Of a DNA stretch of 64,000 nucleotides, positions 1,707 to 56,857 are shown piece after piece. Source of the stretch: Oxalobacteraceae bacterium (lineage in GTDB: Bacteria; Pseudomonadota; Gammaproteobacteria; Burkholderiales; Burkholderiaceae_D); the NCBI GenBank assembly GCA_021299035.1, contig JAJTGD010000003.1, positions 1 through 64,000 on the forward strand, written 5' to 3'. Within the stretch, counting starts at the first letter, position 1, and each line of letters begins with the position of its first letter. Under the pieces are notes generated by a model, which was given only the letters and a program-made list of their open reading frames with translations, was not told where the DNA came from and ran no database searches. The translations under genes were made by a program, and so were the position numbers.

Positions 1707-2870
1707 TTAGAGACCCGCAGCTGCTCTCAATGCGGCTGCTTTGTCGGTGCGCTCCCAGCTGAACTCCGGCTCATCACGACCAAAGTGGCCGTAAGCAGCC
1801 GACTTGCGATAAATAGGACGCAAGAGATTCAACATCTGCACGATGCCCTTTGGTCTCAAATCGAAATGCTCGCGCACGAGTTGTTCGATTTTTTCATCGC
1901 TGACCTTGCCAGTACCGAAGGTGGTCACCATGACCGAGGTTGGTTTGGCAATGCCGATCGCGTAGGAGATTTGAATCTGGCACTTGGATGCCAGACCTGC
2001 GGCAACGATGTTCTTGGCGACATAACGACCCGCGTAGGCAGCCGAACGGTCGACCTTCGACGGATCTTTGCCCGAGAACGCACCGCCACCGTGAGGCGCT
2101 GCGCCGCCATAGGTGTCAACAATAATTTTGCGCCCGGTGAGGCCGCAATCTCCCTGCGGACCGCCGATCACAAAACGCCCGGTCGGGTTCACCAAGTAGC
2201 GCGTGTCCTTCAACCACTCGGCGGGCACCACTGGCTTGATGATCATTTCAATCGAGGCTTCTTCGATCTGCTTGTGCTCGACTTCAGGCGCATGCTGCGT
2301 CGACAGCACGATGGTGTCGATTGCAACCGGCTTGCCGTCGACATATTTCAGCGTGACCTGCGACTTGGCGTCTGGACGCAGCCAGGGCAGTCGACCATCC
2401 TTGCGGAGTTGAGACTGCCGCTCAACGATGCGATGGGCGTAGTAAATCGCCGCAGGCATCAGATCAGGGGTTTCATCACACGCGTAACCAAACATCAGTC
2501 CCTGGTCTCCCGCGCCTTGGTCGAGATCGAGGCCTTTACCTTCATCGACACCCTGCGCGATATCGGGTGATTGTTTGTCATATGCCACCAGCACGGCGCA
2601 ACCTTTGTAGTCGATGCCGTAGTCGGTGTTGTCGTAGCCGATATCTTTCAGCGTATCGCGCGCGACTTTGATGTAGTCCACATTCGCCGTTGTGGTGATC
2701 TCGCCCGCCAGCACCACCAAACCGGTGTTGCAGAGGGTTTCAGCGGCGACGCGAGCGCGCGGATCCTGGTCCAGGATGGCGTCAAGAATCGCATCAGAGA
2801 TCTGGTCGGCGACTTTATCCGGATGACCTTCGGACACCGACTCGGAAGTGAACAAGTACTCGTTGGACAT
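1707..2870 (-). CDS. metK: S-adenosylmethionine synthetase
   Basis: Makes S-adenosylmethionine from methionine and ATP in the cytosol. The 387-residue length fits the family (E. coli 384). Signatures are GHPDK at residues 15-19 (ATP/methionine site), [12 protein letters not shown] in the middle, and the phosphate-binding loop [16 protein letters not shown]. The start is fixed by a good Shine-Dalgarno, AGGAG, 6 nt upstream of the ATG. The gene stands alone, diverging from lpxL. Its leader carries a SAM-II-type aptamer (2927-2978) behind a sigma70-like promoter, so the enzyme that makes SAM is probably repressed by SAM. The family assignment is secure. Confidence 0.97.
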
Positions 2871-2926
2871 GCAAGCTCCTAAAAACTGATTAACACGATG
2901 TCGCGGTCAACTCAGTGAGCCTGCGA

Positions 2927-2978
2927 CGCTTTAGCGAAATTTGTAGGCCGCCTCGCAAGTTGTCTGTTAACTCGGCGG
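2927..2978 (-). promoter_or_regulatory. SAM-II-type riboswitch aptamer in the metK leader
   Basis: Read on the minus strand: P1 5' arm CCGCC (2978-2974), loop beginning GAGTTAAC and ending CTTGC (2959-2955), P1 3' arm GGCGG (2952-2948), A-rich linker ACAAAT, then GCTAAAGCG (2935-2927). CTTGC can pair with GCTAAAG across a U-U mismatch to form the pseudoknot expected of SAM-II. The loop start deviates by one base from the usual GATTT. The metX leader in this window shares the order and the ACAAAT...GCTAAAGCG block. The platform is less clear: a GTCGC/GCGAC hairpin and a T5 run lie between the aptamer and the AGGAG ribosome site, so control could be at translation or transcription. Confidence 0.75.
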
Positions 2979-2992
2979 ATGAAACGCATGTT

Positions 2993-53097: not shown

Positions 53098-53703
53098 TCA
53101 TCGCTTCCGCAGCCGGAATACTGCCAGACTGCCACGCCAGTGCGGCAGAAAACTCACGGGGTCACCTTCCTCACTGAGTGCGACAAAATCTATCACTTCC
53201 AAACCAACTTCGCGCGACAAATCTTCAAAGTCGCTAATGGTGGCGCAACGTAGATTCGGTGTGTCATACCACTGGAAAGGCAAACTCTCGGAGATCGGCA
53301 TACGCCCCATTAATAAAGACAAACGGTGCGGCCAATGCGCAAAATTCGGAAACGACACAATCGCTTCGCGGCCAACACGGGCGATATCACGCAGCGTTTC
53401 TTCAACATGTTTCATCATCTGCAGCGCTGACAGACAGAGCACGGTATCGAATGCATTATCTGCAAACATCGCGAGCCCATCTTCCAAATTTTGCTGAATC
53501 ACATGGACGTCACGTTGCACGCAGCGTGGGATTTTTTCATCATCGATTTCAACACCATAGCCTGTGCATTGCTTTTGGCGTTGTAGATATTCGAGCATGG
53601 CGCCATCACCGCAACCCAAATCCAACACCCGCGACGCAGGTGTTACCCAGTGCGCGATAAAGGCAAGGTCGGCACGCAAGCCACTAACGGATGGCGTGAT
53701 CAT
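53098..53703 (-). CDS. metW: Methionine biosynthesis protein MetW
   Basis: SAM-methyltransferase-like protein that accompanies MetX and is thought to support its activity. Motif I is [16 protein letters not shown], with a conserved [29 protein letters not shown] is diagnostic of MetW. 201 residues. The ATG overlaps the metX stop by 4 bp (ATGA), so the pair is one transcript under the SAM-II leader. Confidence 0.94.
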
Positions 53704-54866
53704 GCGGCTTCTCCCAGTGCTACCGGCGTTGGCAATGTCGCGCCAAGCTGATGCCAGATCTTGTCATAATAGGCGCGTACGACACCCATGTAGCGCGCAT
53801 CATCTAGTAGAAACGCATCATGGCCGTGAGGCGCATCAATCTCGGCATAAGTGACACGGCGCTGGTTTTTTACCAAGGCTTGAACAATCTCACGGCTGCG
53901 ATCGGGCGCGAAGCGCCAGTCGGTGCTAAATGACACCACCAAAAACTCTGCCTGAGTATTCGCCAATGCAGCGGCAAGGTCGCCACCATTAGCGCGTGCG
54001 GGATCAAAGTAATCCAATGCCTTGGTAATCAACAGATAGGTGTTGGCATCGAAATACTCGGAAAATTTGTCGCCTTGATAGCGCAAATATGACTCGATCT
54101 CGAAATCAACGCCAAAGCCGAATTGGTAATCGCCATTGCGCAGATCGCGGCCAAACTTTTCGGCCATGTCGTCATTCGACAGGTAAGTAATATGACCAAT
54201 CATGCGCGCCACGCGCAGACCGCGTTTGGGCACAACACCGTGCGCGTAAAAGTCACCGTCGTGATAATCCGGATCGGTCAAAATCGCTTGCCGTGCTACG
54301 TCATTGAACGCAATATTTTGTGCCGACAGCTTGGGGGTGGAAGCGATGACCAGACTGTGCGCAATGCGGCTCGGATAGAGCACGCTCCACGCCAGCGCCT
54401 GCATACCGCCGAGTGAACCACCCATGACTGCAGCAAATTTCTGAATGCCCAGCCGATCAGCTAGCCGCGCTTGGGCGTGCACCCAATCCTCCACGGTCAC
54501 TACCGGAAAACTTGCACCGTAGGGTTTGCCAGTCGCAGGATTGTTGTGCATCGGGCCGGTGGACCCAAAGCAAGAGCCCAGATTATTGACGCCGATGACA
54601 AAAAAACGGTCTGTATCTAGCGCCTTGCCGGGCCCCACCATATTGTTCCACCAGCCCTCACTCTTGGCCTTGCCCTCGTAGCTACCGGCGACATGGTGTG
54701 AGGCATTTAAGGCGTGACAGACCAGCACCGCATTCGAGCGATCGGCATTCAAGCTGCCGTAAGTCTCGTACACCAGAGTGTAATCGGCTAGTGCCGCGCC
54801 ACTTTGCAGCGGTAGCGGTTCGCTGAAGTGCATCGATTGTGGTGTGACAGTACCTATGGATTTCAT
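53700..54866 (-). CDS. metX: Homoserine O-acyltransferase MetX
   Basis: First committed step of methionine synthesis: acylates homoserine. Alpha/beta hydrolase fold with nucleophile Ser151 in [27 protein letters not shown] at the N-terminus and the His-Asp partners near [13 protein letters not shown]. 388 residues. Whether it uses acetyl-CoA or succinyl-CoA cannot be decided here; beta- and gammaproteobacterial MetX enzymes often use succinyl-CoA. The leader holds a promoter, a SAM-II-type aptamer and a terminator. Confidence 0.95.
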
Positions 54867-54880
54867 CTTGAACAGTCAAT

Positions 54881-54911
54881 AAAAAAGCCCGAGAGCACTG
54901 GCTATCGGGCT
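54881..54911 (-). terminator. Leader terminator of metX (riboswitch expression platform)
   Basis: On the minus strand AGCCCGA (54911-54905) pairs with TCGGGCT (54892-54886), followed by a T6 run, ending 14 nt before the metX ATG. A terminator in the 5' leader this close to the start codon implies conditional read-through. It cannot be the ptsI terminator, which lies at 55033. Confidence 0.82.
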
Positions 54912-54934
54912 GGACTCGTATCGACTCGAGCTCG

Positions 54935-54994
54935 CTTTAGCCGTATTTGTCCGGGAAGTTCCCGCGCGCCCGCAAGCTAAGGTCAAATCGGCGC
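54935..54994 (-). promoter_or_regulatory. SAM-II-type riboswitch aptamer in the metX-metW leader
   Basis: Read on the minus strand: P1 GCGCC (54994-54990) pairs with GGCGC (54970-54966). The loop contains GATTTGACC, then TTAGCTTGC. A small hairpin CGGGAACTTCCCG fills the variable region, then ACAAAT and GGCTAAAG (54942-54935). These match the SAM-II pattern (GATTT...CTTGC...AAAT..GCTAAA). CTTGC can pair with GCTAAAG to make the pseudoknot. High SAM would stabilise the aptamer and lower metX-metW expression. A covariance-model search with Rfam RF00521 would settle the call. Confidence 0.82.
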
Positions 54995-55003
54995 ATTGCG
55001 CGA

Positions 55004-55032
55004 AGGATAGCGAAACCAGAGGAAAGCGTCAA
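55004..55032 (-). promoter_or_regulatory. sigma70-like promoter of metX-metW
   Basis: Minus strand TTGACG (55032-55027), 17-bp spacer, TATCCT (55009-55004). The predicted start near 54997 is just upstream of the aptamer. The -35 box directly follows the ptsI terminator hairpin. Confidence 0.65.
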
Positions 55033-55058
55033 ACGACCGCCAACTTATTGGCGGTCGT
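55031..55058 (-). terminator. Intrinsic terminator of the PTS-glutathione operon (ptsI)
   Basis: Perfect 11-bp stem (55033-55043 with 55048-55058) and a 4-nt loop, 42 nt after the ptsI stop. The U-tract is short (TTT at the base) and merges with the TTGACG of the metX promoter. Confidence 0.72.
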
Positions 55059-55099
55059 GCCTGCGAAGGATACCGGCCAGCGATTTTGCCCATCAACAC

Positions 55100-56857
55100 T
55101 CAAACTTGGGCCAGCTTCTCCATCGCATCCGCGATCGCCGATGGCTCATAGACTTTGAGCACTTTTTTCGCAGCGGGTTCTAGCAGGCTGAGATCACAGT
55201 TGAGTATCTCGTGCTTGACCGACAGCAGCTGTGCCGGATGCATGGAGAATTCACGCAAGCCAATACCCAGCAGCAGGCGGGTCAATTTAGTATCTCCGGC
55301 AATTTCACCGCAAACCGCCACGGGTATGCCGGCTTTCGCGCCTGCGGTAATCGTCATTGACAATAATTGCAACACCGCCGGGTGCAGTGGGTTGTAGAGA
55401 TGGGCAACTTCGTGATCAACCCGATCAATCGCCAGCGTGTACTGAATCAGATCATTGGTGCCAATCGACAGAAAATCGAGTCGCTTGACGAATAAGGGCA
55501 GCGTTAACGCCGCTGCGGGAATTTCGATCATGGCGCCGATTTTTATCTCTTGATCAAATTTTCTTTTGGCGTCACGCAGTTGTTGCTTGGCCTGCTCGAT
55601 CATGGCCAAGGTCTGATCAATCTCGAAAGCATGCGCCAGCATTGGGATCAACAGATTGATTGGCCCATAGGCTGATGCGCGCAGGATCGCGCGCAACTGC
55701 GTGAGGAACAGCTGCGGCTCGGATAAGCAGTAGCGAATTGCACGCAGCCCGAGCGCGGGATTGAGCGCTGTTTCCTCATCTTTGTCGAGCGGTTTGTCAG
55801 CGCCAACATCGAGCGTACGAATCGTGACCGGCCGACCCTTCATCGCGACTATCGCCTTGCGATAAGACTCGAATTGCTCATCCTCGGATGGCGTCCTTGA
55901 GGCTTGGCCGCTATGTCCCATGAACAAAAATTCGGAACGAAACAGCCCAACGCCCACGGCGCCCGCTTCCAAAGCGCCGGCGCAATCTTCCGGCAACTCG
56001 ATGTTGGCAAGCAAATGGATGAATGTGCCGTCACGCGTAATCGCTGGCGTTTTTTTCAGCTTGCCGAGCTTCTTGCGCTCACGCAGCAGCTGCGCCTGAA
56101 GCTCACGGTATTGCTCCAGTACGACCGGTGCCGGATCAACGATCACGGTACCTGCATCACCGTCAATGATGACCCAGTCATCATCACTGATCAGTTGCGA
56201 GGCATTTGACATACCCACCGCTGCAGGTATGTCCAGACTACGGGCGACGATGGCGGTGTGCGAGTTCTGACCACCGAGGTCAGTCACGAAGCCGACAAAT
56301 GCGCGATCACGAAACTGCAGCATATCGGCCGGCGAGATGTCGTGCGCAACAACGATCATCTGCGGTACGTACTGATCCGCTTCAACCGCAGGTACCGTCG
56401 GAAACGATTGCGCAGATCCGGTCAATACCTTGAGTACCCGCTCGCCAACTTGCCGAATATCGTTTTTGCGCTCACGCAGATAAGGATCTTCGATCTCGTC
56501 GAACTGGGCTGACAAGGCATCAATTTGTGATAACAGGGCCCATTCGGCGTTGTAGTGTCGGCTGCGAATCATGCGCAGCGGCTCTTCCGAAATAATCGGA
56601 TCAGCCAAGATCAACGCATGCACATCGATGAACGCCGCTAACTCGGTAGGCGCATCCATAGGAAGATCGCGGCGCAGGATACGCAGCTCTTCGTTGACGC
56701 GCTCAATAGCGCTACTCAATCGATCGACTTCTGCTTCCAGACGCTCCTCGGCGACCAGGTAGTGTTTGACATCCCGCGCTGCCGGCCGCAACAGATGTGC
56801 CCGACCAATCGCAATGCCTCGCGAGACCGGGATGCCGTGCAGCGTGAATGATGCCAT
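55100..56857 (-). CDS. ptsI: Phosphoenolpyruvate-protein phosphotransferase (PTS enzyme I)
   Basis: Phosphorylates HPr using phosphoenolpyruvate. Active His200 in GGQNSHTAIVARS; the C-terminal PEP domain has LDVGADKPL, MIEIPAAAL and LSIGTNDLIQYTLA, with the Cys in AVCGEIAG. 585 residues. With HPr and EIIA but no EIIB/EIIC, this looks like the incomplete, regulatory PTS common in Betaproteobacteria. It is the last gene of gshA-gshB-EIIA-ptsH-ptsI. Confidence 0.95.
   Translation of the reverse strand: MASFTLHGIPVSRGIAIGRAHLLRPAARDVKHYLVAEERLEAEVDRLSSAIERVNEELRILRRDLPMDAPTELAAFIDVHALILADPIISEEPLRMIRSRHYNAEWALLSQIDALSAQFDEIEDPYLRERKNDIRQVGERVLKVLTGSAQSFPTVPAVEADQYVPQMIVVAHDISPADMLQFRDRAFVGFVTDLGGQNSHTAIVARSLDIPAAVGMSNASQLISDDDWVIIDGDAGTVIVDPAPVVLEQYRELQAQLLRERKKLGKLKKTPAITRDGTFIHLLANIELPEDCAGALEAGAVGVGLFRSEFLFMGHSGQASRTPSEDEQFESYRKAIVAMKGRPVTIRTLDVGADKPLDKDEETALNPALGLRAIRYCLSEPQLFLTQLRAILRASAYGPINLLIPMLAHAFEIDQTLAMIEQAKQQLRDAKRKFDQEIKIGAMIEIPAAALTLPLFVKRLDFLSIGTNDLIQYTLAIDRVDHEVAHLYNPLHPAVLQLLSMTITAGAKAGIPVAVCGEIAGDTKLTRLLLGIGLREFSMHPAQLLSVKHEILNCDLSLLEPAAKKVLKVYEPSAIADAMEKLAQV

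Follow-up and report, generated by a model that had tools for sequence, protein, structure and literature searches.

The stretch analyzed here (the window) covers 64,000 nucleotides of contig JAJTGD010000003.1 from an Oxalobacteraceae bacterium (assembly GCA_021299035.1), and the question raised by its positions 54,881 to 55,032 is what kind of RNA precedes the methionine genes metX and metW, and whether this RNA works as a switch. A first-pass annotation, made from the letters alone, had seen there a SAM-II-type riboswitch, a class for which binding of S-adenosylmethionine (SAM) has been published (PMC1273637), provided with its own terminator in a betaproteobacterium. The metX leader is very probably a terminator-bearing SAM-II riboswitch; it represents a form which carries an additional hairpin, P3, and escapes Rfam, and its group has been described before under two different names. 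The same window hosts, in front of metK, a second element with an altered third strand.

The elements first annotated are all present on the minus strand between 55032 and 54881. The promoter (55004-55032; -35 TTGACG, 17-nucleotide spacer, -10 TATCCT) was located by a promoter scan and ends 9 nucleotides before helix P1; it scores 9 out of 12, the expected number of such sites in a 701-nucleotide stretch being 0.3. Within 70 nucleotides upstream of same-type aptamers in the fetched loci, the best promoter match is 9 or 10 of 12 in 84 out of 127 cases, a figure obtained without a shuffled control. The aptamer (54930-54996, alignment A1) is 67 nucleotides long and not 60, as initially reported, a hairpin in the linker from P1 to P2 (P3, CGGG-AACUU-CCCG, 54952-54964) having been overlooked. 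P1 is formed by GCGCC (54990-54994) and GGCGC (54966-54970). As DNA, the third strand reads GATTTG, the P2 strand CTTGC, and the 3' motif ACAAAT..GGCTAAAG. In the RNA, the UUU of the major-groove third strand (54985-54987) corresponds to U8-U10 of the SAM-V riboswitch, and P2 is made up by UUGC (54972-54975) and GCUAAA (54936-54941), in which U54939 is the residue pairing with the adenine of SAM, and A54936 that contacting its amino acid part; these assignments are mapped by alignment on the contacts given for SAM-V in PMC6061858.

The intrinsic terminator hairpin (AGCCCGAUAGCCAGUGCUCUCGGGCU, 54886-54911, -15.2 kcal/mol) is followed by a U6 run (T6 in the DNA, 54881-54886), separated, as had been noted, by 14 nucleotides from the metX ATG at 54866. 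The hairpin is absent from the output of a generic terminator scan, an interruption in the stem being the probable cause. Folded alone, the leader is unremarkable (z -1.16; 27 out of 200 shuffles fold equally well), and the direct fold provides no support, a result to be expected because the structure includes a pseudoknot. Downstream reside, on the same strand, metX (53700-54866), encoding a homoserine O-acyltransferase (NF047916, 682.4 bits; the best NCBIfam match is homoserine O-succinyltransferase MetX), and metW (53098-53703; TIGR02081, 235.4 bits), methionine genes of the kind expected downstream of SAM-II members.

The annotation had staked its reading on a match to RF00521 (SAM_alpha), the Rfam model of SAM-II, and here the window copy fell short: no match at E <= 10 was found in the interval 54840-55100, where the 36-bit score was consequently not reached, and the window has no match at gathering level to any Rfam family. 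The cut-off of 36 bits serves for detection and does not define the class, and the miss is attributed to a limit of the model, because compact close relatives are matched. Of eight leader-bearing metX loci given to Rfam, RF00521 hits the leader strand in seven, at E 7.7e-4 to 0.033 and with scores (27.5-33.5 bits) that all stay below 36 bits; the eighth locus, L040, which carries a P3 hairpin like that of the window, is hit by RF02424 alone. A scan of 200 genomes from the order gave RF00521 matches at E <= 0.05 in 107, a figure that includes chance matches, and matches exceeding the cut-off in 36; two of the 14 control genomes have matches at E <= 0.05, and none of these is above the cut-off. 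The gene next to the above-cut-off places is, where read by eye, metX, metZ, metK or metH, several places being unread; two of these loci (L143, L144) are tandems lying before an orphan open reading frame (ORF). RF00521 gives nine matches at E <= 10 in the genome of the window, which were set aside, none falling at the metX leader; the best (C47:83017-83067, 20.5 bits, E 0.03) falls in a low-complexity repeat resembling a lysine/alanine-rich coding region.

The relationship was also monitored in the opposite direction. Model R1 was built from A2, an alignment of 29 places passing the RF00521 cut-off (L119-L148; L120, almost a duplicate of L119, was omitted), and no member of the window's own family went into it. 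R1 recognizes the metX leader with 39.0 bits (E 7.8e-9 in the 64-kb window, 3.1e-7 over the whole genome); the next best match in the window, besides the metK element, scores 10.6 bits. Over 398 genomes of the phylum R1 finds matches in 109 at E <= 0.001, and several places in other genomes of the phylum are, by eye, classical SAM-II elements before metA-, metZ- or metX-like genes. As judged by these models, the kinship of the leader to SAM-II runs in both directions, from RF00521 to the relatives and from R1 to classical SAM-II, which upholds the assignment of a SAM-II-type aptamer with a terminator to a betaproteobacterium.

Conservation follows the expected architecture. In the 29 relatives of A2, 99.4% of P1 cells are paired, and both sides are changed at two of six pairs, in eight cells altogether, a level equalled in none of 500 shuffles. 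The outer pair is CG in 12 sequences, UG in 9, AU in 5, GC in 1, UA in 1 and other in 1; one inner pair is CG in 28 and UA in 1. P1 is thus backed by covariation in the relatives, as befits the SAM-II class, and is intact in the window. Over the whole named structure 99.7% of cells pair, a proportion falling to 35-53% when the partner is slid. The core UUU, UUGC and GCUAAAG is invariant in the RF00521-selected relatives and present in the window, and includes the nucleotides that contact SAM (the UUU strand, the UU of P2, the U and A of GCUAAA; same mapping on SAM-V, PMC6061858). Hairpins resembling P3 occur in the linker of 22 out of 127 distinct same-type aptamers, and comprise several unrelated sequences; a hairpin in L1 is found in six aptamers, the artefact L120 excluded.

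The leaders were next considered with what follows them. A regular expression collected 124 leaders from the fetched loci, counting duplicates and those of distant genomes; a hairpin plus T-run lies downstream of 113, and is missing in 11. With three weak cases dropped (L036, L131, L106), 110 leaders with 88 distinct hairpins could be compared to 65 control hairpins, taken from further sites in these loci at which a hairpin precedes a T-run, mean GC content being 0.61 in both sets. The 5' arm of the terminator contains CCCG, complementary to the CGGG which links P2 and P1, in 79 of the 88 leader hairpins vs. 5 of the 65 controls. Duplexes with the aptamer segment are on average more stable for leaders (-15.5 kcal/mol) than for controls (-12.9; p 7.7e-6). 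In the window the two partners would be CGGGC (54968-54972), overlapping P2 and the 3' strand of P1, as putative antiterminator strand, and GCCCG (54906-54910) in the 5' arm of the terminator.

Computation shows the parts and how well they are conserved, their relationship to SAM-II, and an excess of complementary terminator arms; that SAM is the ligand, which way control runs, and that the antiterminator forms the other state, we infer. RNA polymerase would start just upstream of P1. When SAM is scarce, CGGGC (54972-54968) may pair with GCCCG (54910-54906), blocking the terminator, so that metX-metW would be transcribed. When SAM is plentiful, the ligand would bind the P2 triplex (U-strand 54987-54985, UUGC, GCUAAA) and lock CGGGC into P1 and P2; the terminator arm would then be freed, and transcription would halt in the U6 run, 14 nucleotides before the start codon, making of the leader an OFF switch for metX-metW.

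Several observations weigh against this interpretation, in addition to the RF00521 miss. The P2 pseudoknot (UUGC with GC-U-AA) is 100% paired in 29 out of 29 relatives but invariant, and hence consistent with the model while gaining no covariation support of its own. The SAM-contact positions are likewise invariant in 38 out of 38 leaders of A1, an invariance imposed at most of these positions, and for the core in part, by the pattern used to collect A1. The significance of the CCCG enrichment (Fisher p 1.3e-26) is a guide only, related leaders being treated as independent. The control hairpins are unverified terminators, of mean energy -15.0 kcal/mol vs. -17.4 for the leaders. Compared to hairpin-preserving shuffles, the antiterminator pairing is better at p<0.05 in 20 of the 88 leaders only (median p 0.114), and p is 0.095 in the window. 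By nearest-neighbour folding, which scores neither the pseudoknot, SAM nor kinetics, the minimum free energy of the window leader is -46.5 kcal/mol, vs. -40.4 for P1 plus P3 plus terminator and -37.0 for the forced antiterminator. Taken by themselves, these energies do not favour the switch states. The terminator proposed by the first-pass annotation is retained in every fold computed, the forced antiterminator excepted, and switching would therefore need to be kinetic. Finally, of 80 metX loci searched by regular expression up to 600 nucleotides upstream, 27 have the leader, 27 a different conserved leader, 25 neither, and one is cut off; 53 loci, the one cut off among them, accordingly show no leader of this type.

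The folding results bear directly on the idea that the aptamer does not truly switch, expression being set by a constitutive terminator together with a short RNA acting in trans, or mainly by RNA decay. The presence of the terminator in all but the forced fold fits this idea, and in Sinorhizobium SAM-II small RNAs (sRNAs) and mRNAs are described as stabilised at high SAM, a role in trans being discussed (PMC9373788). Speaking against it, the complementarity of aptamer and terminator arm is conserved, and the scheme is regarded as unlikely. Even lower is the probability that the functional product is an sRNA of the opposite strand, the metX-side pieces being by-products. RF02424 (Bp2_287), modelled as a Burkholderia sRNA, gives the best Rfam match of the interval 54840-55100, on the plus strand at 54900-54990 (27.7 bits, E 1.3e-4; gathering threshold 70), and the candidate from Burkholderia appears alongside verified sRNAs (PMC3521395). 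Yet promoter, terminator and covarying aptamer all lie on the metX strand, at least 14 places among the matches listed carry overlapping hits, RF00521 on one strand and RF02424 on the other (e.g. G035:C71, G016:C2, G059:C6, G122:C189), and the sRNA authors, in the same report, themselves proposed a cis-acting role in methionine metabolism; the opposite-strand product can hardly be entertained.

A separate class, merely similar to SAM-II and sensing methionine, homocysteine, S-adenosylhomocysteine (SAH) or another metabolite of the pathway, is a further option, and would correspond to the metXZ element, presented by its discoverers as novel, no ligand being named in the text available (PMC4239095). 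The option draws on the failure of RF00521 to detect the window copy, and on the finding that most copies, on reading A1, are devoid of the long P2a of classical SAM-II. It is hard to reconcile with the SAM-contact nucleotides, identical in all 29 RF00521-selected relatives and in the window, down to the U pair facing the sulfonium, and with the 36 genomes of the order in which RF00521 exceeds its cut-off; a distinct class therefore seems improbable, and a SAM-II riboswitch with a terminator is the preferred reading.

The terminator is less singular than had been supposed. It had been viewed as an unusual platform for SAM-II; Corbino et al. (2005) described many SAM-II representatives with putative terminators, and included Bordetella bronchiseptica in the alignment figure (PMC1273637), and according to Huang and Lilley (2018) the majority of SAM-II riboswitches are transcriptional, the metX one they crystallised being "a rare translational" case (PMC6061858). 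Nor is it new to betaproteobacteria: SAM-II elements with terminators were noted there in 2005/2007, and Leyn et al. (2014) reported the metXZ element, as novel, in 35 beta-proteobacterial genomes, located before metXW in 30 out of 35, and speculated on an antiterminator formed between GC-rich regions 3 and 4 and one terminator arm (PMC4239095). In Sinorhizobium the metZ SAM-II switch yields an sRNA of the size expected from termination, rising when SAM is high (PMC9373788).

The window copy shares with SAM-II (metA motif, RF00521) P1, the H-type pseudoknot P2, the GAUUU third strand, UUGC/GCUAAA, the downstream terminator and the methionine genes, and differs by the P3 hairpin, a P2a of at most about 3 base pairs, and a G-C where the consensus has A-U beside P2 (the latter two as read), besides the lack of an RF00521 match. 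It occupies the same place as metXZ, before metXW or metZ, and like it has conserved regions, a pseudoknot, a terminator and a suggested antiterminator; a pseudoknot-type element plus terminator before metXW in a betaproteobacterium agrees with the text description of Leyn et al., and metK and metH are not named as metXZ targets in the text available (PMC4239095). The SAM-V core superimposes on SAM-II, P3 being present in the former and absent in the latter (PMC6061858), and the window copy resembles SAM-V in both the linker P3 helix and the SAM pocket. Unlike the window copy, which is followed by a terminator, SAM-V, a riboswitch known from marine bacteria, acts on translation; its Rfam model matches neither window nor leader, and a P2a occluding the Shine-Dalgarno sequence was not found. 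RF02424 shares the locus with the metX leader and is modelled as an sRNA on the opposite strand; a scan at E <= 0.01 detected it in 65 of the 200 genomes taken from the order (above cut-off in one) and in 1 of 14 control genomes (below cut-off). In most genomes, according to Khoo (2012), Bp2_Cand287 lies before methionine genes, and a role in cis was suggested (PMC3521395). By Rfam's own measure many members of the metX-leader family are SAM-II, RF02424 is, from the overlapping matches, the complement of these leaders, and the family seems to have been modelled on the wrong strand.

The second element of the window (2924-2980, minus strand; R1 36.3 bits, E 4.2e-8) is SAM-II-like, has a P1 made up by CCGCC/GGCGG, and features GAGUU in place of GAUUU as third strand. 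It ends 53 nucleotides before the ATG of metK (1707-2870, minus strand; TIGR01034, 603.4 bits), encoding SAM synthetase (methionine adenosyltransferase). No hairpin with a T-run was seen by eye between element and gene, and control is therefore probably translational. In two other loci (L127, L142) a metX-type aptamer plus terminator precedes metK, a transcriptional form of the arrangement. At E <= 10 the window metK element is matched in Rfam by RF00521 (10.7 bits) and by an unrelated microRNA family, and by nothing else; SAM-V, SAM/SAH and SAM-II_long_loops, considered as its identity, were discarded as they give no match at this level. The SAM/SAH riboswitch of Rhodobacterales is comparable as a SAM-related RNA located before metK (PMC2864571), and differs by the lack of a match here. 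The spermidine riboswitch was set aside as an account of the altered elements, as it concerns variants of SAM-I, not SAM-II.

Within the order, elements of the metK type are found before metK in several families. A search of 250 genomes from the order with the strict pattern CGAGTTAN{3,14}TTGCGN{14,26}CGCTAAAGCG gave matches in 17, and with the reversed pattern, used as control, none among the matches listed; metK follows 14 of the 17 places, of which a script flagged 13 and the remaining one (L217) was recognized by the SVGEGHPDK start of the protein. R2, a model of the metK type built from 18 sequences (alignment A4), matches 185 out of 300 genomes at E <= 1e-5, cross-hits to metX-type elements included. 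Follow-up of 65 loci, mostly taken from the hits listed, yielded 80 hits, of which one, short and partial, was left out. Of the remaining 79, 33 precede metK, and their third strand is GAGUU in 28, GAUUU in 2, GUGUU in 2 and GCGUU in 1, the window copy included. The pocket-side U of the third strand is changed to G in 31 of these 33 metK leaders, in a sample leaning towards the sequences from which R2 was built. In A4, 98.9% of P1 cells are paired and 12 are changed on both sides; the P2 core is present and never varies. P1 covariation and P2 core are thus those of SAM-II, the GAUUU third strand of the class is not, and the element at 2924-2980 was classed as derived from SAM-II rather than as belonging to it.

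In ten loci searched in Rfam (six metK, three tandem, one metH) none of these elements has a match at gathering level. The sole such matches in the ten loci are SAH riboswitches located elsewhere in L249 and L271. No description of the metK element was found in the open-licence PubMed Central (PMC) literature searched for it. On balance, betaproteobacteria appear to carry a metK riboswitch derived from SAM-II, with G replacing the U of the third strand that faces the U binding the SAM adenine; it lacks a terminator, is probably translational, and may bind SAM or a relative. Elements of this kind would also form tandems, one member with and one without a terminator, before a small orphan ORF and a MATE transporter.

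Tandem aptamers were observed in 16 of the 65 loci (L224, L226, L227, L229, L246-L248, L252, L258, L259, L264, L265, L272, L280, L281, L283), the first being followed, by eye, by a hairpin plus T-run, the second not. Often found downstream are a small orphan ORF, its translation starting with MFDC or MYDC, and a MATE transporter; in one locus the MATE family was confirmed and the orphan ORF had no family match, and two further orphan ORFs had no match in Pfam. SAM-II-like tandems, with a short second element (GGGATTTGAGGGGCAGCTTGC..), were also seen by eye before metY/metZ-like genes in other genomes of the phylum (L160, L161, L164, L190). A third candidate of the genome analyzed lies just outside the window, before metH (C60:77725-77801, corresponding to L182:2726-2802, minus strand); it has a P3 hairpin and a terminator, and a weak R1 score (24.1 bits, E 0.0032).

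The different leader found directly before metX in 27 out of 80 loci (L050, L051 ... L118) comes from Janthinobacterium, Duganella, Rugamonas and kin, and consists of a stem, GGCGGGACC/GGUCCCGCC, followed by GGCCCGUGGGGCCGCCCC. In the 20 of 27 sequences aligned, the stem covaries strongly, six of nine pairs being double-changed, in 34 cells, vs. 0 out of 500 shuffles. Four such loci, part of a separate set of eight searched in Rfam, had no match at gathering level. The leader is possibly an unnamed regulator of metX, taking the place of SAM-II.

Three descriptions are joined by this analysis, namely SAM-II in betaproteobacteria, the orphan metXZ element, and the Bp2_287 "sRNA"; neither this link nor the equation of metXZ with SAM-II was found in the open-licence PMC literature searched, as far as the texts available extend. 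The orphan metXZ element gains a probable ligand. The Rfam SAM-II model appears to miss many members, so that methionine regulation would be under-annotated in this order. SAM-II with a terminator being already known in betaproteobacteria, what is added is the link between the names and support for the switch, the metK variant representing the newer part. With its altered pocket position, this variant offers a ready test of drift in the SAM pocket, and could fill a gap left in the work of Leyn et al.
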